40,209 nucleotides of DNA from an uncultured Spirochaetaceae bacterium (GCA_944389055.1 CALXKY010000003.1:1-40209); one strand, 5' to 3'; positions 29,291 to 40,209 are shown, counted from the first letter of the stretch. The notes: generated from the letters alone by a model not told the origin. Made by a program: numbers and translations.

Positions 29291-30132
29291 AGGAGCTTCT
29301 GAGACTCGAGAATGTGACAATGCAGTTCGGCGGTGTCGTTGCCGTGAACAATCTCTCCATGACAGTGGGAGAGGGGGAGATCGTGGCTCTCATAGGTCCG
29401 AACGGGGCAGGGAAGACCACGGCTTTCAACTGCATCACCGGCGTCTATGAGCCGACTAACGGGAAGATCATCTACGACGGGAACACGATCATCGTCAACC
29501 ATCCATCAGGGAAGATGAAGCGTGCGTACGCCGGCTATGAAGCCGACATGTATCTTTCGGAGAAGACGCTCAATCCGACACCTGACAGGATCACGGAGCT
29601 TGGCATCGCGAGGACCTTCCAGAACATCAGGCTCTTCAGGAGCATGACAGTCTTCCAGAACGTCCTCACCGCCATGCACCTCAGGGCGAAGGAGAATGTC
29701 TTCTCAGCCGTGCTCCGCATCAGCTGGAAAGAAGAACGGCAGATGGAGGCGGAGACGGAGAAGCTTCTCAGGGAGCAGGGGCTCTGGGAGCTCAGGGATG
29801 AGAATGCCACGAGTCTTCCTTACGGGCTCCAGCGGCGTCTTGAAATCGCGAGGGCGCTTGCGACAAGGCCCCATCTGCTTCTCCTCGATGAGCCTGCTGC
29901 CGGCATGAACCCGCAGGAGACGCAGGAGCTTGCGGCTTTCATCAGGGAGATCAAGGAGCGCTATGATCTGACTGTGCTCATGATCGAGCACCACATGGAT
30001 CTTGTCATGACCATCTCCGACAGGATCTATGTCCTCGATTTCGGCTCGCTTATCGCACAAGGGCATCCGGAGGAGATCCAGAGCAATCAGCGTGTCATCG
30101 ATGCGTATCTGGGGGTAGCGGAAGATGTTTGA
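29287..30132 (+). CDS. livG: Branched-chain amino acid ABC ATPase (LivG-like)
   Basis: This is a 281-residue ATPase with Walker A GPNGAGKTT (37-45), Q-loop RTFQNIRLF, signature LPYGLQRRLEIARALA, Walker B LLLDEPAAGMNP and the LivG-specific tail ending IDAYLGVAEDV. It is longer than E. coli LivG (255) because of an insert after the A-loop region (NTIIVNHPSGKMKRAYAGYE, about 72-91). The start overlaps the livM stop, and the end overlaps livF by 8 bases. Confidence 0.94.
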   Translation: MKELLRLENVTMQFGGVVAVNNLSMTVGEGEIVALIGPNGAGKTTAFNCITGVYEPTNGKIIYDGNTIIVNHPSGKMKRAYAGYEADMYLSEKTLNPTPDRITELGIARTFQNIRLFRSMTVFQNVLTAMHLRAKENVFSAVLRISWKEERQMEAETEKLLREQGLWELRDENATSLPYGLQRRLEIARALATRPHLLLLDEPAAGMNPQETQELAAFIREIKERYDLTVLMIEHHMDLVMTISDRIYVLDFGSLIAQGHPEEIQSNQRVIDAYLGVAEDV

Positions 30133-30823
30133 GATAAAGGGACTTTCAGTCAACTACGGCGGCATCGAAGCTGTCAGGGATATATCGTTCTCCGTTGAGG
30201 AGGGAAGCATCGTCACGCTCATCGGCGCCAATGGCGCGGGGAAGTCGACGACGCTACGTACCATCGCGGGGCTTGTGAAGCCGAGGAGCGGGAAAATCAC
30301 ATTCATGGGCGAGGATATAACGGGAAAGGATCCGGCATTCATCGTCGGAAAGGGCATCACGCTCGTTCCGGAAGGCCGCAGGATCTTCCCCGATCTTACC
30401 GTATATGAGAATCTCAGGATCGGCGCATACCTCAGGAAGGACAGGATCGATGATGACATCGAATGGGTGTTCTCCCTCTTCCCGAGGCTCCGTGAGCGTT
30501 CATGGCAGTATGGAGGAACGCTCTCCGGCGGTGAGCAGCAGATGCTTGCGGTAGGCCGCGCGCTGATGTCGAGACCGAAGCTGATGATGATGGACGAGCC
30601 CTCTCTCGGGCTTGCTCCCCTCGTCGTCCGCGATATCTTCTCAATCATCCGCACCATACGCGACAAAGGCGTCACGATCCTCCTTGTGGAGCAGAACGCC
30701 AACATGGCGCTTCAGACCGCGGACATGGCATACGTCATGGAAACAGGCAGCATCACGCTCTCCGGCAAGGGCAGAGACCTCATTGCCGATGACAGCGTGA
30801 GGAAAGCCTATCTCGGCAAATAG
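30125..30823 (+). CDS. livF: Branched-chain amino acid ABC ATPase (LivF-like)
   Basis: This is a 232-residue ATPase with Walker A GANGAGKST (34-42), the LivF-type GITLVPEGRRIFPDLTVYENL, signature LSGGEQQMLAVGRALM, Walker B LMMMDEPSLGLAPLV and the C-terminal VRKAYLGK. It completes a full Liv importer of binding protein, two permeases and two ATPases. It is the last gene of the operon, followed by inverted repeats. Confidence 0.95.
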   Translation: MFEIKGLSVNYGGIEAVRDISFSVEEGSIVTLIGANGAGKSTTLRTIAGLVKPRSGKITFMGEDITGKDPAFIVGKGITLVPEGRRIFPDLTVYENLRIGAYLRKDRIDDDIEWVFSLFPRLRERSWQYGGTLSGGEQQMLAVGRALMSRPKLMMMDEPSLGLAPLVVRDIFSIIRTIRDKGVTILLVEQNANMALQTADMAYVMETGSITLSGKGRDLIADDSVRKAYLGK

Positions 30824-30849
30824 CGCAGCATAGCAGTGTCCTGTATTTC

Positions 30850-30881
30850 ATCAGGGTCATTCCGAAAGGGGTGGCCCTGAT
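30850..30881 (+). terminator. Hairpin at the end of the Liv operon
   Basis: ATCAGGG (30850-30856) pairs with CCCTGAT (30875-30881). A flanking outer repeat AGCGCAGC/GCTGCGCT (30822-30829 and 30889-30896) could form a longer cruciform-like structure. It lacks a strong T-tract, so it is only a probable terminator; it sits between convergent units. Confidence 0.45.
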
Positions 30882-30907
30882 TGCATCAGCTGCGCTGATA
30901 AGCCCTT

Positions 30908-32064
30908 TCAGATGATTTTCCCCTCCCAGAGCGATGAAAGGAAATCCTTGTATGGAAGGACCAGTATCCCGTTATCGAGAAGCTGTGGGTAATCCTCCCT
31001 GCATACCAGGATGTATTTCTCCATCAATCCTTCTTCCATAAGGGCTTTCAGTCCTTTCAGGTCCTTTGGAGAAACACGCTTTGTAGCCTTCACATCGACA
31101 GCGACCTTTTCCTTGATGATGAAATCGACTTCCTGCCCGTTCTGAGCATGCCAGTATGACATACCTTCATTATCAAATCCTGAATAATCAAGGAAGCTGC
31201 GGATCTCCATTGCTGCGTAGTTCTCGAAGTATCTCCCGAATTCCGCAGTACCTTCCTCTATGGCCGATAACCCCTGAAGTTTCCTGGTGACACCGACATC
31301 GAAAAGATAAAACTTGCTTGAAGCGTTAGGCTTCCTGATTTTCGTCTTCCTGTAGGGAGGAACCTCGAATCCTATGAGTGTGTCAATAAGAATCCTGTAC
31401 CATTCACGGACACTGACACCGCTGATCCCGACATCCCGTGCAACATTCTCATAGTTCGTAATCTCACCGCTTTCCGTCGCAGCTACCCGCAGGAATTCCC
31501 AGAATGGGGGAAGATTCCGCACCTCGCGTTCAGCTTCGATCTCCTCCTTCACATAGAGCCCGACATAATCAGAAAGATGGCTTTCGTAATCATCACTGCT
31601 GAATGCTGATGGAAGAAGCCCCGATCTGAATATTTTATCGAGGGAAGTATCGAAAGCCTTGATTTCAGGCCATATGAGGGAATGAAAATTGAGTCTTCCA
31701 GCTCTGCCGCCAAGGAGGTTCACTCCTTTCTTCTTCAGCTTTCTCGCACTTGAGCCCGTGAGCAGGAAGTGTATGTCCGTCTCCTCAATGAGAGCATATG
31801 GACTTCATTGAGAAGATCCGGCAATCTCTGGATCTCATCAAGAACAACAACACCATCATTGATTCCTTTTGCCCGTAAAGTGTTTCTCAGAAGGGAAGGA
31901 CGCATTGAGAGATCACGGTACAGCTCATTATCCAGAAGCGTCCGGATGATGGCATGGCTATACAGCTTCTTTTGTACGATGTTGTTGATTTGCGGCAAAT
32001 AGATGAATTTATAATAAATAAATGATTTACAAATTAAAAATAAAACCAAATATTGATGTATCAA
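30908..32064 (-). pseudogene. Broken AAA_14/DUF4143 ATPase gene (Walker A lost, frameshift)
   Basis: Two frames on the minus strand belong to one gene. The first (31735-32064) keeps NELYRDLSMRPSLLR and VVVLDEIQRLPDLLNEVHML (Walker B), but the sequence before it runs from YLPQINNI straight to VQKKLYS, with the P-loop (normally a GPRxTGKT motif) missing. At about 31790-31794 the frame slips: a CTCTC run has two extra bases. Skipping them restores IEETDIHFLLTGSSARKLKK and then GVNLLGGRAG, which joins directly to the second frame (30908-31723). That frame carries the rest of the gene, including GQEVDFIIKEKVAVDVKATK. The product would have no ATP-binding loop and be cut short, so the gene is very probably dead. 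No homologue of an immunity or partner gene is seen. An intact member of the superfamily lies at 19870-21237. Confidence 0.85.
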
Positions 32065-32171
32065 GCATAATATTCATTGATAAAAAACAATGAAAACGAT
32101 GTCATGAAAATATAAAACAGAAAACTGATGTATACATAAAAATCGTTCAGATTTTATTGATTATATTTCTG

Positions 32172-32200
32172 TTGACGTGAGCAATATCGTGGCTTAGCAT
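32172..32200 (+). promoter_or_regulatory. gdhA promoter
   Basis: TTGACG (32172-32177) and TAGCAT (32195-32200) are exactly 17 bp apart. The start near 32207 gives a leader of about 11 bases containing CGGAGG, just before ATG 32218. Confidence 0.65.
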
Positions 32201-32217
32201 GATTATCGGAGGATGAT

Positions 32218-33555
32218 ATGTACAGAATCGAAGAATTCATGAAGGAAATAGAGCGCCGGAATCCTGCAGAACCGGAATTCATCCAGGCTGTAAGGGAGGT
32301 CGTGGAATCCGTCATAGATACGGTCAATGACAACCCCAGATATATCCAGAGCAGGATACTTGAGCGCATCACCGAGCCCGACAGAGTCATATCATTCAAG
32401 GTCGAGTGGGAGGATGATGACGGGAACATAAGGGTGAACAGGGGCTACCGCGTCCAGTTCAACAATGCCCTCGGCCCATACAAGGGCGGACTCAGATTCC
32501 ATGCATCCGTGACAGAGGGGACGATGAAGTTCCTCGGATTCGAGCAGATATTCAAGAATGCGCTCACAACGCTCCCTATGGGCGGCGGCAAGGGAGGCTC
32601 TGATTTCTCCCCGAAGGGCAGGTCGGATGCCGAGATCCTCAGATTCTGCCGTTCATTCATGACGGAGCTCTATAAATACATCGGCCCCGATACCGATGTT
32701 CCCGCCGGGGACATAGGAGTCGGCGGACGCGAGATAGGATATCTCTACGGCCAGTACAAGAGGATCATGACGGAGAATACCGGCGTCCTTACGGGAAAGG
32801 GCTTCGGCTGGGGCGGCTCAAGGGTACGGCCTGAGGCAACGGGTTTCGGAACGATGTACTTCGCGGAGAACATGCTCCATGAGAACGGAGAGGAGATGAA
32901 GGACAAGCGCATAGCTGTCTCAGGCTTCGGCAATGTCGCATGGGGTGCTGTCATGAAAGCAACCCAGCTCGGCGCCAAAGTCGTCACGATCTCCGGTCCG
33001 GATGGATACATCTATGATGAGGACGGCATATCGACGCCGGAGAAGTGGGCATACATGCTGCAGCTCAGGGCAAGCAACAATGATGTCGTGAAGCCATACG
33101 CAAGCCGCTTCAAGGCGGAATTCATTCCCGGTAAGAAACCATGGGAAGTCCCTGTGGATCTTGCCTTCCCGTGCGCTATCCAGAATGAGCTCGGCAGAGA
33201 GGATGCCGAAGAGCTTATAAACAATGGCGTGAAGTATGTCGTTGAGACCTCGAATATGGGATGCACGGCAGAAGCAATCGAACTCTTCAGGAAGAACCGC
33301 ATCCGCTTCGCTCCGGGAAAGGCGGCAAACGCAGGCGGCGTGGCAGTCTCCGGGCTTGAGATGAGCCAGAATGCGATGCACTACTTCTGGGGTGCTGAGG
33401 AAGTCGACGAGAAGCTCCATGGCATCATGAACTCCATCCATTCGGAGTGCGTAAGCCATGGAAGAGAGGACGACGGCTTCATCGATTATGTCAAAGGCGC
33501 CAACATCGCGGCTTTCAGGAAGGTCGCGGACGCTATGTGCGATCAGGGTTATTGA
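32218..33555 (+). CDS. gdhA: Glutamate dehydrogenase (GdhA, hexameric, probably NADP-type)
   Basis: This is a 445-residue enzyme that interconverts glutamate with 2-oxoglutarate and ammonia. The substrate domain has VQFNNALGPYKGGLRFH (79-95), the catalytic TTLPMGGGKGGSDF (117-130, Lys125) and DVPAGDIGVGGREIGYL. The dinucleotide domain has AVSGFGNVAWGA. The sequence matches the short hexameric GDH family typified by E. coli GdhA and clostridial GDH; NADP preference is an inference from general similarity. It stands alone, with its own promoter and terminator. With serine dehydratase and two amino acid importers nearby it fits ammonia/amino acid metabolism. Confidence 0.95.
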   Translation: MYRIEEFMKEIERRNPAEPEFIQAVREVVESVIDTVNDNPRYIQSRILERITEPDRVISFKVEWEDDDGNIRVNRGYRVQFNNALGPYKGGLRFHASVTEGTMKFLGFEQIFKNALTTLPMGGGKGGSDFSPKGRSDAEILRFCRSFMTELYKYIGPDTDVPAGDIGVGGREIGYLYGQYKRIMTENTGVLTGKGFGWGGSRVRPEATGFGTMYFAENMLHENGEEMKDKRIAVSGFGNVAWGAVMKATQLGAKVVTISGPDGYIYDEDGISTPEKWAYMLQLRASNNDVVKPYASRFKAEFIPGKKPWEVPVDLAFPCAIQNELGREDAEELINNGVKYVVETSNMGCTAEAIELFRKNRIRFAPGKAANAGGVAVSGLEMSQNAMHYFWGAEEVDEKLHGIMNSIHSECVSHGREDDGFIDYVKGANIAAFRKVADAMCDQGY

Positions 33556-33587
33556 TCAACCATTAGCTTCATAAAACCTCCCCTCGG

Positions 33588-33607
33588 CCGGTCCTGAAAA
33601 GGGCCGG
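33588..33607 (+). terminator. gdhA terminator
   Basis: CCGGTCCT (33588-33595) pairs with AGGGCCGG (33600-33607), one G-T wobble, around a GAAA tetraloop, followed by a T-rich stretch. Confidence 0.75.
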
Positions 33608-33681
33608 TCATCTGTTTGTATATGCTATTTCGCCAAATTAATTGGAGAATCAATACTTTTTGTATTAAAAAATAAATTGAT

Positions 33682-33710
33682 TTGACAAAAACAGGTGTGA
33701 ATAATACTAT
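33682..33710 (+). promoter_or_regulatory. Promoter of the AAA/Toprim module
   Basis: A perfect TTGACA (33682-33687) is followed at 17 bp by TACTAT (33705-33710); TATACA (33708-33713) is an alternative at 20 bp. Either places the start 2-5 bases before the ATG at 33722, and no ribosome binding site is present. Confidence 0.5.
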
Positions 33711-33721
33711 ACAAACTGTAT

Positions 33722-35161
33722 ATGAAAGGGGTTTCTTCTTTTGTCAGATTGTCATGCCTGAAGATCAGGGACTTCAAGAATGTGGAGTATGGTGAAGTAT
33801 CTCTAGGCAGGAACCGCAGATCAGATGCTGATATCCTTGGTATTTATGGACAGAATGGCTCCGGAAAGACAGCATTGATTGATGTTCTGGGTCTGCTTTC
33901 TTTTCTTCTCTGCGGGCGGAGGATACCTTCAAAGTTTTCCGATTGTATCAGAGCAGGGAGCCAGTCAGCAGAACTTGAATACCATTTCAATGCTGAGCTG
34001 AATGGTGTTGCATACAGAATCCAGTATATTGTGGACATTGTTTCCGCGGCTGATGAATCAGCTTCATCCAATACTTTAGACAGTCCTGAAAAGAAGCAGC
34101 ATGGCAGGTTGTCTGTCCGACGTGAGCAGCTGAAGGCTTCCTACACTGATGGAGAGGGCGGCAGTGGTAAGCTTCAGACTGTTATCGATACGGACACGGA
34201 TTCTGTTTTTGTCCCTGATTCTAAATTCCAGCTGCTGACAGGCCTCAGCAGAAAGAACAGCACGGATCTTCTCGTAGCGAAGAAGGTTTCGGAACGCGAA
34301 TCCCGGTCATTCGTGTTTTCCCCTGAGCTGCTTAAGGTATTCAGGGAAAACAGCTCTGGATTGAGCAGCGCGGAATACAGCTATCTGCATGATATGATTG
34401 AGCGCCTTGTTCAGTATGGGAACGCCGAATTATTCGTAATCAACACGGCAAATACCGGATTGATCAGCCTTGATTTCCTTCCTGTCGCATTCAGCTATGA
34501 GAATGAAGCTGCGGGAAAGATGTTCGGCAATACTGCAATCATGATTGGAGGAATAACAGTTGTTCCTGAACCTGTATTCCATGATATAAGCCTCATCATA
34601 GATAGTATGAATATCGTGCTCCAGCAGATAATTCCAGGGCTTACCATCAGTATCCGTGATTACGGGACCCAGACCATGAATGATGGCCATGATGGTCGGC
34701 GTATTGAGCTTATGTCCCTCCGTGGCAGTACGGAGATACCGCTTCAGTATGAATCCGAGGGCATAAAGAAGATCATCTCGATACTCCAGCTCCTCATTGT
34801 TGTCTATAACAAGAAATCAATTACAGTTGCAGTCGATGAACTGGATTCAGGTATTTTCGAGTATCTGCTTGGTGAGATCCTTAAGATTATCGCAGAGCAG
34901 GGAAAGGGACAGCTCATCTTTACCTCGCATAACCTGCGTCCGCTTGAGACCCTTGATAAGGATTCAATTGTCTTTACAACAGTCAATCCGTCCAACAGAT
35001 ATGTGCGCATGACCTATGTAATGGCAAACAACAATCTGCGTGATTTCTATTATCGGGATATAATCCTCGGCGGAACACAGAGAGAAACGCTCTATGATTT
35101 CACTGACAATGCAAGGATTGGACTTGCTTTCAGAAAGGCTGGTGATGGCTGCACAACGTAA
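33722..35161 (+). CDS. AAA15-type ABC/SMC-like ATPase of a two-gene defence-like module
   Basis: This is a 479-residue ATPase of the COG1106/AAA15 (OLD-like) type. It opens with VRLSCLKIRDFKNVEYGEVSL (a RecF-like N-terminus), Walker A GIYGQNGSGKTALID (40-54), a long helical/coiled insertion (about 110-340), a signature-like ESEGIKK (344-350), Walker B TVAVDELDSG (368-377) and the H-switch LIFTSHNLRPLE (398-409). Such ATPases occur with a nuclease or Toprim partner in abortive-infection and restriction-like systems (OLD, AbiL, PARIS, RloAB). The downstream gene overlaps by 17 bases and encodes a Toprim-like protein, so the two very likely form one system. I cannot assign it to a named type from sequence alone. 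Codon use is more A+T-rich than in the housekeeping genes upstream. Confidence 0.82.
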   Translation: MKGVSSFVRLSCLKIRDFKNVEYGEVSLGRNRRSDADILGIYGQNGSGKTALIDVLGLLSFLLCGRRIPSKFSDCIRAGSQSAELEYHFNAELNGVAYRIQYIVDIVSAADESASSNTLDSPEKKQHGRLSVRREQLKASYTDGEGGSGKLQTVIDTDTDSVFVPDSKFQLLTGLSRKNSTDLLVAKKVSERESRSFVFSPELLKVFRENSSGLSSAEYSYLHDMIERLVQYGNAELFVINTANTGLISLDFLPVAFSYENEAAGKMFGNTAIMIGGITVVPEPVFHDISLIIDSMNIVLQQIIPGLTISIRDYGTQTMNDGHDGRRIELMSLRGSTEIPLQYESEGIKKIISILQLLIVVYNKKSITVAVDELDSGIFEYLLGEILKIIAEQGKGQLIFTSHNLRPLETLDKDSIVFTTVNPSNRYVRMTYVMANNNLRDFYYRDIILGGTQRETLYDFTDNARIGLAFRKAGDGCTT

Positions 35162-35873
35162 GAAAGCATTGATTTTCCTTGTTGAGGGAATAACAGATCA
35201 GATCTCTCTTGAACAGTATTTCAGCCGATTTCTTGCTGGATATATATCAAGGTATCATGTGTTCTGGGGTGATATAACAAGCTCTAAGGAAACCAGTGCG
35301 CAGAATATTGTCATCAGTGTTTCCGAGGCTGTCAGGAAAGTAATCAGGACATATAGGCTTAAACGGAGTGATATTGCCCTTGCAGTGCAGATCTGCGATC
35401 TTGATGGGGCTTTTATCCCAGATGAATGCATTTGCTTCGACGATGAAGCGGAGAAGCCTATCTATGATACGAGATGTATCCGTACATATGATGTAGATGG
35501 TATGATCCAGCGTAACCATGATAAGCGGGCAAAGCTGCATAAGCTGATGAATACGGGGACGATACTGAAAGACATTCCTTATCGTCTATATTATATGGCA
35601 AGCAATCTTGAGCATGTGCTTTATGATAAACCCAATGCACTGCCTGATGAAAAACGCGGACTTGCCGATTGTTTCTCCAGAAGATTCGATGAGAAAGCAA
35701 TGGATGATTTCCTTCGATTCATCTGCTGCAGCGGGTTTTCCGTACATGGCGGATACAGGGAATCGTGGAAGTTTGCCGAGACGGGATGCAACTCACTTGG
35801 ACGATATACTAATCTGAATCTCTTCTTCGAGAATTTCGGAGATGGCACGGATCTGACAGGTTGCTACAGCTGA
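35145..35873 (+). CDS. Toprim-like effector protein paired with the AAA ATPase
   Basis: This is a 242-residue protein starting MAAQRKKALIFLVEGITDQI: the strand-Glu motif FLVEG (Glu14) is the first Toprim acidic position. The DxD motif is in AVQICDLDGAFIP (80-92; Asp85 and Asp87). Later conserved-looking blocks are YRLYYMASNLEHVLY (146-160) and GGYRESWKFAE (202-212). This arrangement is seen in small proteins encoded beside AAA ATPases in putative anti-phage modules; a metal-dependent nuclease acting on DNA or RNA is the likely role (inference). The start could also be 35094, but 35145 gives the typical N-terminus; it lies within the 3' end of the ATPase gene (coupled translation). Confidence 0.75.
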   Translation: MAAQRKKALIFLVEGITDQISLEQYFSRFLAGYISRYHVFWGDITSSKETSAQNIVISVSEAVRKVIRTYRLKRSDIALAVQICDLDGAFIPDECICFDDEAEKPIYDTRCIRTYDVDGMIQRNHDKRAKLHKLMNTGTILKDIPYRLYYMASNLEHVLYDKPNALPDEKRGLADCFSRRFDEKAMDDFLRFICCSGFSVHGGYRESWKFAETGCNSLGRYTNLNLFFENFGDGTDLTGCYS

Positions 35874-35998
35874 ATCCATTATAGCGAAATCCAGGTATGC
35901 TCCTTTTGTGTGACGGACTGATGCTGCCTGCACTGCAGTTTTTCCAGGTGTCTCATATCCTCAAAAGAAAAGTTGGTGTTTACTTCACTCTGAATGGA

Positions 35999-36030
35999 AA
36001 GCTCTCAGGGCCTAAGACCCATGAGAGCTT
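35999..36030. terminator. Possible bidirectional terminator hairpin
   Basis: AAGCTCTC (35999-36006) pairs with GAGAGCTT (36023-36030), with GGG/CCC pairing inside. It lies between the convergent Toprim and PfkB genes; there is no clear T-tract on either strand. The rest of 35874-36051 holds nothing I can identify. Confidence 0.45.
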
Positions 36031-36051
36031 GCTTGATACAGACTTCGTTGA

Positions 36052-36981
36052 TCAACTGCTTGAATCTGAATACTTTTCCATGAACTTTCTTACTGTCTCC
36101 TCGCTTGCCGTACCACCTCTAGCACCTTTGATTGTAATTGACCTGTTCGCTGCTCCTATAGCAAATTCAGCGGCTTCTTTTATTTTCCACTTTTTGGAAA
36201 GTCCATAAAGAAATGCAGCATTGAAGGTATCACCAGCTCCATTTGTATCTACTGGTTTAATGTCAAAGGCTGGTATTATATAATCATCCAGTTTCGTTAT
36301 TACGCGGCAGCCATCTTTACCTAGCGTAATTACTATAATCTGCACACCACATGTGAAAAAATATTCAAGTAGTTTTTTTTCATTCCCAAAATCATCACAA
36401 TTTGCTTTGTACCCAAACTTGTTGAAGAAAATTACCGTTGATTGTTCAGCTATGCGCTTTGCATTTTCATCAGGAAAGCTTCCTTCTACATCAATAGCGA
36501 ATTTTGCACCATGCGCAGCAAAATCAGCAAAAAGATGCAGATAGTCAGGAAAGAGAGATTCATTCCATCCTGCAAGGTATATGAAATCAGCGTTCCTGAA
36601 CATCTCAATCTGTTTCTCAGATAATGGATTTGCAGGTTTTGGCTGTTTTACATATAGAATTGTCCTTTCATGCTCACTGCATATAATCAGGCACTTCGAA
36701 TCATTTACCCCATCAACTCTTGAAACATAGTCAATGCAAACTCCAGATTTTTTCAGATCATTCAGAAGGAAATCATTTGTACTGCTTTTGCTTAGTACAT
36801 CATAGAATGCGGCTTTTCCTCCGAGAGCAGAAAAAACGCATGCTGCATTGGACACGCTTCCACCAGGAACGGATTCTCCTTGCAGTATTACAGCTTTTGA
36901 TCCTTCCTCTGGCCAGGATTCAACTGAATAATATTCATCCATATGAAGGATACTTACAAAAACTGAATATTTTTCTTTCAT
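36052..36981 (-). CDS. PfkB-family carbohydrate/nucleoside kinase
   Basis: This is a 309-residue ribokinase-fold kinase. PfkB signature 1 region: VPGGSVSNAACVFSALGGKAAF (38-59). Signature 2: DTNGAGDTFNAAFLYGL (245-261), with the catalytic base Asp251. The sequence between (ILYVKQPKPANPLSEKQIE; IYLAGWNES) is not specific enough to name the substrate; ribose, a nucleoside or a related pentose is plausible. ATG 36981 is chosen for its AAGGCGG ribosome binding site; the frame opens at 37020, overlapping the preceding stop. It is the last gene of a leftward cluster with two ADP-ribosylglycohydrolases, the same pairing as in the E. coli yegTUV locus (YegU hydrolase, YegV kinase). Confidence 0.85.
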   Translation of the reverse strand: MKEKYSVFVSILHMDEYYSVESWPEEGSKAVILQGESVPGGSVSNAACVFSALGGKAAFYDVLSKSSTNDFLLNDLKKSGVCIDYVSRVDGVNDSKCLIICSEHERTILYVKQPKPANPLSEKQIEMFRNADFIYLAGWNESLFPDYLHLFADFAAHGAKFAIDVEGSFPDENAKRIAEQSTVIFFNKFGYKANCDDFGNEKKLLEYFFTCGVQIIVITLGKDGCRVITKLDDYIIPAFDIKPVDTNGAGDTFNAAFLYGLSKKWKIKEAAEFAIGAANRSITIKGARGGTASEETVRKFMEKYSDSSS

Positions 36982-37003
36982 CTTTTTCCGCCTTTTGTGA
37001 TAT

Positions 37004-38047
37004 TCAGCATGTGGAATCATAAATCATGTTTGCCATTTTCCTGAAATCAATCCATTTGTTAGTTTCTTGCAATGTATTGATATGATACTCGATATTTTCG
37101 ATTTCATTTGCCCCTCTCAGAGATCCTACAATTGAAGCTGCCATAATTGCTGTTGTATCACAGTCGTTTCCGCTGTTTATAGCTAAATAGATGGTTCTCA
37201 TTATACTGCTGTCTGTAGCGGCATATCCAAATGCCGAAGGGACTGCTTCATTTGCATTAAGACCAGTTCCTATAAGATCCGTCATTTCTGTAATGCAGCC
37301 CTCGAAATCATCAGAGTATTTCCTGCCAATTGATATTGCGAGTTCCATCCTCTTTTCTACGCTGGCTCCAGCGGATGGTTTTGCGATATTCAGTGCTTTC
37401 TCATAACCGATTCTTGCACCATATAATCCAGCTTCTAGTACAGAATCCATTGTAGCGTTGTTGCAGAATGCAGCTGCAACAGCGGCAGCAACAGCTGTTC
37501 CTCCGGAAAGGGCAATTGGATTATCGTGAGAAATATGGCACATAACAAGCGCATCATCGATTGCTTTATCAATATTCCCCTGATTGAACAAACCAACAAT
37601 CCAGGCTTTCATTCCAGCCCCATTTGTTGCTGTCTTGTTCTCGCAGAAAAGATAATCACGTGATTTATCATATGGTGTCCCTTCGATTTTCGCTATGCTT
37701 TTTCGTGTGGATGGACCTCCATACTTTTCATAGAAAATTTTGGTATCGTCACCATTCTTCCATTTTAGGATTGCCTCGGTTGAGTTTTCTTTTGTTATCC
37801 TGCCATTGTCTCTCAAAAAATAAATTGCTGAAATATAGGAAATGGAGAAGTCGTCTGTGACGGCAGCACGAGGCATTCCCTTTGCAATGGAATCATCCAG
37901 GGGAGTCATATAATCATATACGAAATCACCGTGTCCGAAATCTTTCTTAATAAGATATACTGGTCTTGTTTCCAAAGGACATCCCATTGCATCTCCAATA
38001 GCAGCTGATACAAGGCAACCTAGTATTCTGTCATATCTTTTATCCAT
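37004..38047 (-). CDS. ADP-ribosylglycohydrolase (DraG/ARH) family protein, copy 2
   Basis: This is a 347-residue protein with the all-helical DraG/ARH fold: start helix RILGCLVSAAIGDAMGCPLE (7-26), first metal motif VTDDFSIS (63-70; Thr64-Asp65-Asp66), NGAGMKAWIVGLFNQGN, SHDNPIALSGGTAVAAAVAAA and the second metal motif NSGNDCDTTA (291-300). All expected binuclear Mg/Mn ligands are kept, so it should be active. Family members remove ADP-ribose from modified proteins or cleave small N-glycosides. It is clearly a paralogue of the neighbouring gene. ATG 38047 is preferred: AAAGGAGG lies 9 bases upstream; it begins one base after the stop of copy 1. Confidence 0.88.
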   Translation of the reverse strand: MDKRYDRILGCLVSAAIGDAMGCPLETRPVYLIKKDFGHGDFVYDYMTPLDDSIAKGMPRAAVTDDFSISYISAIYFLRDNGRITKENSTEAILKWKNGDDTKIFYEKYGGPSTRKSIAKIEGTPYDKSRDYLFCENKTATNGAGMKAWIVGLFNQGNIDKAIDDALVMCHISHDNPIALSGGTAVAAAVAAAFCNNATMDSVLEAGLYGARIGYEKALNIAKPSAGASVEKRMELAISIGRKYSDDFEGCITEMTDLIGTGLNANEAVPSAFGYAATDSSIMRTIYLAINSGNDCDTTAIMAASIVGSLRGANEIENIEYHINTLQETNKWIDFRKMANMIYDSTC

Positions 38048-38048
38048 A

Positions 38049-39101
38049 CTACTCAACCTCCTTTATGTAATTCGCAATCTTTTCAGCCATAGCACGTAAA
38101 TTGAAATTGTTGACTTTATCTATTTTCTCTATGTAACAATCAGGAAAATTCTCCGAATTGCTGAGAGCTCCGGTTATGTACCCTGTCATACATGCAACAG
38201 TATCTGTATCATCACCACCGTTAACCCCCATAAGAACGGAATCCTTGATTCTTCCTTCGCATGCGGCAATATGACCAAAGACAGCAGGGATCGCTTCATA
38301 TGCAAAAAGGCCTCCTCCGATTATTTCAGATATAGCTCTCATTGCTTTATCAAATTGATTCCTGTATTCTGCCCCGATCTTTACAGCAAGCTTGATTTTC
38401 TTCTCAACATTTCCACCTGCAACTGGAGCGGCAGTTGTCAGAGCTTTCCTGTATCCTTCTGCAGCTCCGTATATTCCTGCTTCAATCGTGTCATTATAAG
38501 TTGCGCCCGGGCTCATTGCGGCAGCTGTTGCAGCCGCGATAGCACATCCTGCAGACAGGGCTATGGTATTATTGTGTGTTGGGGTACAGAAGATGATTGC
38601 TTCATCAATTGCTCTGTCTACATTACCAGGATTGAGTAGCCCTATGATTCCTGCTTTCATACCAGCACCGTTGGTTGCTCTGCTATTGTTGCATAATAAC
38701 TGATCTTCAATTATTTCAAGGATATTTGTTCTTTCGACTTGTTTCTCTTCATGCATTAGTGCTGATATGGCTTTTTTGGTTGTTGGACCTATATATCGTG
38801 TGTATTCCGGATGTCCGAACCACCTTATCAGAGACTTCTCGGCAAGCTCTTTTGTGGGACGGCTGCCTGCACTCAGTATGTCTTCTGCAGAATAATACGC
38901 AATTGAGAAGTCATCTGTGACAAGGCCTGCAGGATTTCCATGTGCGAGATTATCATCAGGTGGTGGTATCAGGTCAGTTACATAACCATTGAATCTCTGG
39001 ATGATGTGATCTGTGGACCGCTGTTCGGTGACAGCGCCCATTGCATCTCCAGTCGCTGCGGCTAATAGTGCATTCAGGATTTTTTCTTCTACTGACGGCA
39101 T
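38049..39101 (-). CDS. ADP-ribosylglycohydrolase (DraG/ARH) family protein, copy 1
   Basis: This is a 350-residue paralogue of the downstream gene: ILNALLAAATGDAMGAVTE (8-26), VTDDFSIAYYS (61-71; Thr62-Asp63-Asp64), NGAGMKAGIIGLLNPGN, NTIALSAGCAIAAATAAA and NGGDDTDTVACMTG (294-307). It keeps the full metal-ligand set and has the canonical GGDDTDT. The start is ATG 39101 (AAGGAG 5-10 bases upstream), with a GTG at 39107 as alternative. It is the first gene of the hydrolase-hydrolase-kinase set; 136 bases separate it from the sirtuin gene, where a weak promoter might lie (TTGGTC and TAGATA 18 bp apart on the minus strand). Confidence 0.88.
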   Translation of the reverse strand: MPSVEEKILNALLAAATGDAMGAVTEQRSTDHIIQRFNGYVTDLIPPPDDNLAHGNPAGLVTDDFSIAYYSAEDILSAGSRPTKELAEKSLIRWFGHPEYTRYIGPTTKKAISALMHEEKQVERTNILEIIEDQLLCNNSRATNGAGMKAGIIGLLNPGNVDRAIDEAIIFCTPTHNNTIALSAGCAIAAATAAAMSPGATYNDTIEAGIYGAAEGYRKALTTAAPVAGGNVEKKIKLAVKIGAEYRNQFDKAMRAISEIIGGGLFAYEAIPAVFGHIAACEGRIKDSVLMGVNGGDDTDTVACMTGYITGALSNSENFPDCYIEKIDKVNNFNLRAMAEKIANYIKEVE

Positions 39102-39237
39102 ATTCACTCCTTGTAATTTATCTATCTATTCAAACCATAGAAGACCAATCAGGGGTGGTAAAGTATGCACTTTTTTGTGGGTAGGCTCTTTTATGATACT
39201 AGTATATTTTAATTGTAACAGTTTTTTGAATCGATTA

Positions 39238-40134
39238 TTATAATAGGTCTTTTAATATCTGGTTGATGTCTTCTCCGAAAATATATGCTTTGTCTGCTAT
39301 ATTCTGGTTAGTTATATTCGGGTATACGGAATTGATTCTGATCAACTGTGCATTTTCAAATGCTTCTACATAGTTTTCAAAAGGATACCTGATTATATTT
39401 GGAAGACGGAATCCGCAGCCAATCTCCAGAAATACAATTTTCTTATTTTTTATGGCTGAGATTTTCTTTTGGAATTGATCTCGGTTTAGGTAAGTCTCTG
39501 GTTCTGATACAGATACGGTCTTTGTCCGGAAATGATTCGGGACAAGAAAATCTCCACAGCGGCTGCATTTCGGGATATTAGCTTCTGTCAGCTGTATTCC
39601 TGAATCAATCTTAATAAAGATTTCATTTATCAGATCATATGATTGATAACAGGCATTATGAGTACAGGGAAACCTGCATTGTAGGTATCTGTATGTTCCC
39701 AGCGGACTATAAATCTGCTGTGAGGTGAAACCGGATTTCTCTAATTGCATATCTGAATTTGTAGTGATTGCTAGCCAGTCTTTTTCTCCTACAAGTTTGT
39801 GTAAATTAAGATGAGCTTCTGTTGGTTGCCTGTCAAAACAGGCATATTTTATGAGTGTTGCCCAGAAAAACCAGTATTCATTGATATTATCAGGCCTTAT
39901 TTCACTGTATTTATCAATAAGTTCATCTATTGTCAGGAAATTTGAGTTATCCTGAAAATCATGGAACCATTTCTTTGATAATTTCTTGCTGAAGAAATCA
40001 ATACCGGAAGCGCTGTTTATTCCGGATCCGGTTCCGATGACAATAACTTCTGCTTCCTGGATAGCTTCTTTTGCTTTCTTTATCCTTATTTGATAATCCT
40101 TAGCTAATGGTATGCTGTTTGCTGAATAAAATGG
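39238..40134 (-). CDS. SirTM-like SIR2 family protein, 5' end lost
   Basis: An open frame of about 298 codons with no ATG, GTG or TTG near its beginning (first ATG is at 39750, well inside the domain). Counting from the CCA codon at 40134: NAD-binding VIVIGTGSGINSASGIDFF (about 30-48), ITTNSDMQLEKSGF (about 123-136), zinc Cys153/Cys157 (LQCRFPC) and Cys190/Cys193 (KCSRC), and a C-terminal FLEIGCGFRLPNIIRYPFE. This pattern matches the SirTM class of sirtuins, which ADP-ribosylate proteins and in which the deacetylase His is replaced by Gln; here the segment reads YSPLGTYRY, with Leu in that position. Most of the domain is intact, so only a few N-terminal codons seem to be missing. At 40133 the sequence turns into what looks like an insertion-sequence end. 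Confidence 0.75.
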   Translation of the reverse strand, partial: PFYSANSIPLAKDYQIRIKKAKEAIQEAEVIVIGTGSGINSASGIDFFSKKLSKKWFHDFQDNSNFLTIDELIDKYSEIRPDNINEYWFFWATLIKYACFDRQPTEAHLNLHKLVGEKDWLAITTNSDMQLEKSGFTSQQIYSPLGTYRYLQCRFPCTHNACYQSYDLINEIFIKIDSGIQLTEANIPKCSRCGDFLVPNHFRTKTVSVSEPETYLNRDQFQKKISAIKNKKIVFLEIGCGFRLPNIIRYPFENYVEAFENAQLIRINSVYPNITNQNIADKAYIFGEDINQILKDLL

Positions 40135-40209
40135 CTCTGTTCAAAAAGTTGTGGGATTAAGGAAATAGCAACGCAACAAAAGAGGGATGAAATCCTTTAA
40201 GATTTGAAA
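40133..40209 (-). mobile_element. Possible end of an insertion sequence with 3' end of its transposase gene
   Basis: Inward from the sirtuin junction the plus strand reads GGCTCTGTTCAAAAAGTTG, typical in style of an IS terminal repeat. On the minus strand a frame entering from the window edge (22 codons, FQILKDFIPLLLRCYF then LNPTTF) stops at 40143-40141, inside this repeat, as many transposase genes do. The family cannot be named from this fragment, and the other end is outside the window. Confidence 0.4.

Follow-up and report, generated by a model that had tools for sequence, protein, structure and literature searches.

Here we analyse a 40,209-nucleotide stretch of DNA from an uncultured Spirochaetaceae bacterium (the window, by which we mean the whole stretch and not only the region of interest), in which a sirtuin-like gene lies beside genes for two DraG/ARH-fold hydrolases (ARH1 and ARH2) and a PfkB-family kinase. 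Our analyses indicate that the sirtuin-like gene is probably what remains of a one-component regulator of the adjacent salvage operon, namely its ligand-sensing C-terminal portion; the regulator would have joined an HxlR DNA-binding domain to a sirtuin domain before an insertion sequence (IS) cut it. This reading is based on the fusion of the nearest sirtuin relatives to HxlR, the motif losses that they share with the window protein, the presence of the same operon alongside, a common non-coding element, and the variability of the regulator slot in related operons. We lean, if only slightly, towards the further proposal that the sirtuin fold has come to serve as the sensory domain within a transcription factor, which would respond to an ADP-ribose-like or ribosyl metabolite and control the operon for its salvage.

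A class M-derived sirtuin domain fused to HxlR in Diplocloster

The sirtuin-like protein matches the SirTM structure 5a3a (84 bits, 7.8e-23), which together with fungal Mfs1 (8rsn) is the closest solved structure by sequence. In a maximum-likelihood tree the class M and CobB-type sirtuins are split with 100/100 support and the window protein falls inside class M, while the sirtuin part of the AlphaFold model of the HxlR fusion superposes over 259 residues on 5a3a (VIA Z 21.3, 3.0 A); by both tree and fold, the gene descends from the class M clade. The earlier note on this DNA had described a SirTM-type sirtuin and proposed placing it in a SIR2 tree: the ancestry stands, whereas the motifs that define the class, and the integrity of the gene, do not.

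SirTM sirtuins are defined by QG instead of HG and by the pyrophosphate loop GVGx[NT]TP, and mutation of Gln137, which is essential in SirTM, strongly decreases activity (PMC4518038). In the window protein QG has become LG, leucine replacing the catalytic glutamine (Gln137), and the loop reads GCGFRLP (GSGFRLQ in the Diplocloster relatives described below); four zinc-type cysteines and the glycines of the NAD pocket are retained, as are the TTNxD residues Asn and Asp and the arginine that follows the zinc knuckle. LG and GxGFRLxN are common to the window and Diplocloster and absent from the approximately 45 other class M loci aligned at those sites, which retain the glutamine and, a few variations aside, [NT]TP, the exception being one distant divergent paralogue, represented by two fragments. 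The SirTM proteins of S. pyogenes (5a3a) and S. aureus thus resemble the window and Diplocloster proteins in clade, fold, zinc-knuckle cysteines and active-site Asn and Asp, but differ in having the glutamine of QG, the GVGx[NT]TP loop and a macrodomain partner, in lacking an HxlR fusion, and in not standing beside ARH-ARH-PfkB genes. A macrodomain gene lies within 1.5 kb of SirTM at 16 of 17 loci in the window's family and 30 of 35 in Clostridia, and none of these same-family (0/17) or clostridial (0/35) loci contains an ARH or PfkB gene. No macrodomain was found in the Diplocloster loci or among the tested window genes beside the sirtuin, where the upstream side is unassembled. Separately, a relative from the same genus carries three tandem SirTM-like genes (G099:C30, 8343-10849).

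The closest relatives of the sirtuin occur in Diplocloster agilis and D. modestus (loci L098 and L099), members of the Bacillota, a different phylum from that of the window genome. Here ARH1-ARH2-PfkB is followed by a convergent gene of 432 amino acids and then by divergent Bmp-, NupO-, NupP- and NupQ-like transporter genes. In both species the 432-residue single frame joins an HxlR domain (PF01638, residues 18-105, 5e-27 in D. agilis) to a C-terminal sirtuin domain. The latter is 41% identical to that of the window, with the segments LG, NHxR, GxGFRLxNIIRxPFE and LIRINS in common, and a long-stemmed clade inside class M unites the two Diplocloster sirtuins with the window protein at 100/100 support. 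The gene order that the earlier note had suggested seeking elsewhere therefore does recur, with sister sirtuins and a common non-coding element, although it is rare, being confined to one genus and the window genome. The aligned portion reaches into the linker (FY, residues 122-123 of the Diplocloster protein), and the IS of the window therefore lies roughly where a linker between helix-turn-helix (HTH) and sirtuin would be expected; from this we infer that the window gene was formerly such a fusion.

Further LG-type or fused sirtuins were not found in the Diplocloster family (397 genomes) and class (391), in the family to which an Oscillospiraceae metagenome-assembled genome (MAG; G133) belongs (300) or in the window's phylum (296), these being genome samples in which the best-scoring matches were inspected, such that rare cases may escape; the nearest matches were QG-type (200-223 bits) with an adjoining macrodomain gene. 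Viral contigs yielded no confirmed relative, and no plasmid or phage record covered 80% of the fusion. The list of similar structures from VIA-align spans the sirtuin domain only and is uninformative on the HTH. No description of an HTH-sirtuin fusion was found in the literature searched, most subscription papers lying outside its scope. Characterised HxlR-family members are small stand-alone proteins; the Diplocloster protein shares PF01638 with these HxlR (DUF24) regulators but bears in addition a sirtuin domain of 310 amino acids. Several Clostridia have stand-alone HxlR genes close to SirTM-macrodomain genes (5/8 wider and 7/35 narrow loci), most of them sharing 45-50% identity with the fused domain, which suggests that class M operons are under HxlR-type control. 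It is plausible that the fusion originated when adjacent HxlR and SirTM genes were joined, catalysis was lost, and an ARH-PfkB cassette captured the result. Examples of stand-alone HxlR genes near SirTM and Zn-macrodomain genes are the clostridial loci L229 (8864-12150), L233, L234 and L235.

Insertion of an ISL3-family element and a conserved non-coding element

The open frame of the sirtuin-like gene runs from 39238 to 40140 on the minus strand, its native sequence beginning at 40132. Between an in-frame TGA (40143-40141) and the ATG at 39750 there is no ATG, GTG or TTG, and translation from that ATG would give 170 residues only, lacking the glycine-rich NAD loop. Window and contig end together, and their final 77 bases are IS sequence, which is found again at the termini of contigs C95 and C102 of the same genome and in further members of the genus; a full copy in G111 encodes an ISL3-type transposase (DDE_Tnp_ISL3, 9.1e-55). 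Contigs C106 and C95 represent the two ends of one IS copy flanked by an identical 8-bp duplication, TTTTATTA; this fixes the boundary of the IS and therefore places the window junction at 40132/40133. The second flank of the insertion was sought and not found, C69 and C106 holding different flanks. Since no stop interrupts the roughly 298 codons of the leftover frame and the copies in the genome do not differ over 76 bases at the IS end, the insertion is probably recent.

The gap between the sirtuin-like gene and ARH1 contains a conserved element, AGTATCATAAAAGAGCCTACCCACAAAAAAGTGCATACTTTAC (39200-39158), identical at 36 of 43 positions to the intergenic region between the HxlR-sirtuin and Bmp genes of D. 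agilis, a score reached by 0 of 1000 shuffles. Its 16-bp core, AAAGTGCWTAMTTTAC, also occurs upstream of Diplocloster ARH1. In whole-genome searches allowing one mismatch, which gauge specificity, the core was found once in the window's genome (in the sirtuin-ARH1 gap), three times in each Diplocloster genome and in none of seven other genomes; the exact matches number two per Diplocloster genome, both at the ARH/HxlR-sirtuin locus, and no chance matches are expected in the window. The copy between HxlR-sirtuin and Bmp in D. modestus forms part of a perfect inverted repeat, TCAAAGT-N9-ACTTTGA. No Rfam match was obtained in 30000-40209. The identity across phyla and the presence of two sites within one Diplocloster locus are the stronger points for the element, which on sequence grounds is a candidate for the cognate operator of the operon. 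Owing to the recurrence in two Diplocloster species and to this common element, the association of the sirtuin with ARH-ARH-PfkB is not a chance one.

The ARH1-ARH2-PfkB operon and related cassettes

The four genes, all on the minus strand (36052-40132), lie in DNA of 36-43% G+C compared with 53-57% across most of the rest of the window, in agreement with the same-strand, A+T-rich cluster that the earlier note had described; its identification of a ribokinase-fold kinase and of two DraG/ARH hydrolases with all metal ligands is likewise borne out (see the table). Overlaps involve only ARH1, ARH2 and PfkB, a gap of 130 bp separating the sirtuin-like gene from ARH1, and the three genes constitute one operon of the ARH-PfkB type, as the earlier comparison with YegU/YegV had indicated. 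The ATG at 39101, preceded by AAGGAG, is the probable start of ARH1, the open reading frame listing giving the upstream GTG. Both hydrolases combine PF03747 with the ligands E28, T64-D65-D66 and D300-x-D302-T303 (ARH1 numbering), which by sequence places them in the DraG/ARH family. The AlphaFold model of ARH1 (mean pLDDT, a per-residue confidence measure, 93.4) retrieved 1t5j (MJ1187) as its top Foldseek match, followed by ARH3 and DraG, which share the fold and metal ligands but with an identity of at most 22% in the structure match (MJ1187).

A genome scan based on ARH alignments located relatives of ARH1 and ARH2 in Clostridia and Erysipelotrichia. The window ARH1 is 58-59% identical to its counterparts in Diplocloster (59%) and in L097, a locus of the Oscillospiraceae MAG G133, ARH2 is 64% identical to those of Diplocloster and Oscillospiraceae and groups in the ARH2 clade, and the kinase is 46% identical to the one adjoining the ARH pair in Diplocloster locus L098, the locus used for that comparison. 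Because the ARH1 and ARH2 trees are congruent, the window grouping with L097 and then with Diplocloster, the two genes moved together, probably from Bacillota into the genome of the window.

Table. Features of the sirtuin-like gene and the ARH1-ARH2-PfkB operon in window coordinates
Feature	Position	Strand	Evidence or remarks
PfkB/ribokinase-family kinase, last operon gene	36052..37020	-	PF00294 4.8e-43
ARH2, DraG/ARH-fold hydrolase, overlaps PfkB and ARH1	37004..38056	-	PF03747 3.8e-42
ARH1, DraG/ARH-fold hydrolase	38049..39101 (alternative GTG at 39107)	-	PF03747 1.8e-44
Conserved non-coding element, candidate operator	39158..39200	-	core AAAGTGCATACTTTAC at 39158-39173
Promoter-like site TTCAAA-18-TATACT, immediately 5' of the element	39201..39230	-	weak, 9/12 matches; no clear excess over shuffles
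Sirtuin-like domain, putative remnant of HxlR-sirtuin regulator	39238..40132	-	LG for QG, GCGFRLPN for GVGx[NT]TP, no start codon
Putative 8-bp target site beside IS end (ATTTTATT); second copy off contig	40125..40132		8-bp duplications of other IS copy
ISL3-family insertion sequence end	40133..40209		same sequence at contig ends C95, C102 and in relatives

Cassettes of this kind are widespread. Among 69 annotated relatives, whose neighbours were labelled by BLAST against a small reference set, PfkB is found near ARH in 45 and a transporter in 40 (Nup-type or other ATP-binding cassette (ABC), phosphotransferase system or major facilitator superfamily (MFS)); in the window, no transporter lies on the assembled side of the operon, and the contig stops at the IS on the other. 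Variants are present in Salmonella, Klebsiella and Yersinia, and Limosilactobacillus combines ARH with a cytosine permease and PfkB. The earlier note had asked whether such genes ever accompany a sirtuin or only transporters: a sirtuin is present in 2 of 78 ARH-PfkB-type loci, the cassettes otherwise occurring with transporters and other regulators, and the ARH pair occurs in many genomes without a sirtuin. The regulator slot itself varies, being occupied by GntR-UTRA, DeoR, one Crp-type protein or a GntR-UTRA-ARH fusion. This last, a second fusion of enzyme fold and regulator in the same kind of operon, is seen at L113 (6171-7949, a complete single chain) and L123 (5218-6771). E. coli yegTUV, controlled by the GntR-type YegW/GgaR with a reported response to ADP-glucose (PMC10819704), and Salmonella STM4065-4068 resemble the window operon in that an ARH-fold hydrolase adjoins a PfkB kinase, a transporter and a dedicated regulator, but possess one ARH (35-40% identical to ARH1), an MFS-type transporter and a GntR regulator. 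A second ARH gene in the genome of the window (contig C19; L073, 594-10695) is accompanied by a sugar ABC transporter, an IU nucleoside hydrolase, a nucleoside 2-deoxyribosyltransferase and GntR. Because these cassettes and the second ARH keep company with transporters, nucleoside enzymes and dedicated regulators, salvage of a nucleoside-like or ribosyl compound is the most likely function of the operon.

Elsewhere in the window, an AAA_21 ATPase gene (PADLOC AbiLi 7.6e-25, AriA 6.5e-14), convergent with PfkB, overlaps a gene whose 259-residue product matches no family and contains the TOPRIM-like motif EGITDQ (33722-35873, plus strand); the two represent a candidate AbiL/PARIS-like defence pair. 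At 30908-32064 (minus strand), DUF4143 and AAA_14 halves occur in different frames and are probably the remains of a disrupted AAA_14/DUF4143 ATPase gene.

Proposed mechanism, alternatives and implications

We propose that an HxlR winged helix joined to a class M-derived sirtuin domain devoid of the catalytic glutamine would form a one-component transcription factor, which would have acted on ARH1-ARH2-PfkB, presumably as a repressor, through an operator at 39158-39200. A Bmp/NupOPQ-type ABC transporter, as present in the relatives, would import a nucleoside-like substrate, the ARH-fold hydrolases would cleave its ribosyl bond, and PfkB would phosphorylate the imported compound or the released sugar. 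A ribosylated or ADP-ribose-like compound is the probable ligand of the sensor and would alter its DNA binding, much as in NrtR and AraR with their dead Nudix domain, and in the genome of the window a recent ISL3 insertion in or near the linker would have removed the DNA-binding half. In NrtR and AraR, Nudix folds with an impaired catalytic motif are fused to a winged HTH and sense ADP-ribose or L-arabinose (PMC4666351). The analogy, which concerns manner of working only, would extend to an impaired enzyme fold, a winged HTH and an ADP-ribose- or sugar-linked control of NAD or sugar genes, but the sensor there is Nudix, whereas here it is a sirtuin fold and the HTH is an N-terminal HxlR domain. 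We found no earlier description of a sirtuin domain in such a role, which would establish a new class of sensor domain and parallel the conversion of Nudix to NrtR.

Several observations weigh against this proposal. The HxlR half is missing from the window contig, where the IS occupies the 5' side of the gene and a former fusion is deduced, and AlphaFold models the HTH of the fusion only weakly (pLDDT under 50). Only two independent lineages are represented, with the intact fusion in a single genus, and the closest ARH relative, L097, shows neither an LG-type sirtuin nor the core motif on a contig that stops after ARH2. In addition, the core was derived from the same sites that were later counted, and the counts test its specificity rather than its discovery.

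The reading offered by the earlier note, in which a catalytically active sirtuin of SirTM type attaches ADP-ribose to a target, the ARHs take it off again and the sugar so freed is phosphorylated by PfkB, possibly in NAD-linked defence, draws on the class M ancestry, the intact ARH metal ligands, the co-occurrence in two phyla and the retained TTNxD Asn/Asp and Arg after the zinc knuckle. It now seems improbable: every member of the LG clade has lost the catalytic glutamine and the pyrophosphate loop motif together, the intact homologues are DNA-binding fusions and the window gene is truncated, no macrodomain is seen at these loci, and 76 of the 78 ARH-PfkB loci are without a sirtuin. A role in defence was rejected, PADLOC giving no match for any of the four proteins.

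We also consider it unlikely that the fusion is a still-active enzyme positioned on DNA, modifying itself, a neighbouring protein or the DNA to switch expression, with the ARHs resetting the switch; although the NAD-pocket glycines, Asn and Asp are kept, ARHs are classical removers of ADP-ribose and the sirtuin, ARH1 and ARH2 are co-inherited, the Gln137 required for SirTM activity (PMC4518038) is leucine, and many genomes carry the ARH pair alone. Similarly low probability attaches to the sirtuin being a chance neighbour, transferred horizontally with the operon, with no regulatory role and now a pseudogene. Such a history would suit an A+T-rich acquired segment, an IS-truncated gene and an association limited to few lineages, L097 seemingly lacking the sirtuin, but the association persists although orientation and placement differ between the window and Diplocloster, the element is better kept than the proteins, and the core stands at two sites per Diplocloster locus, which shared ancestry alone leaves unexplained.

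If the HxlR-sirtuin protein is indeed a regulator of its neighbouring operon, not every sirtuin-ARH neighbourhood should be taken for a writer and eraser system of ADP-ribosylation. Release of the regulator from the element should then be brought about by a metabolite of the pathway, whose identity would offer a handle on the substrate of the widespread ARH-PfkB (YegU/YegV-type) operons, and sirtuins would join the enzyme folds that bacterial transcription factors have adopted for sensing metabolites.

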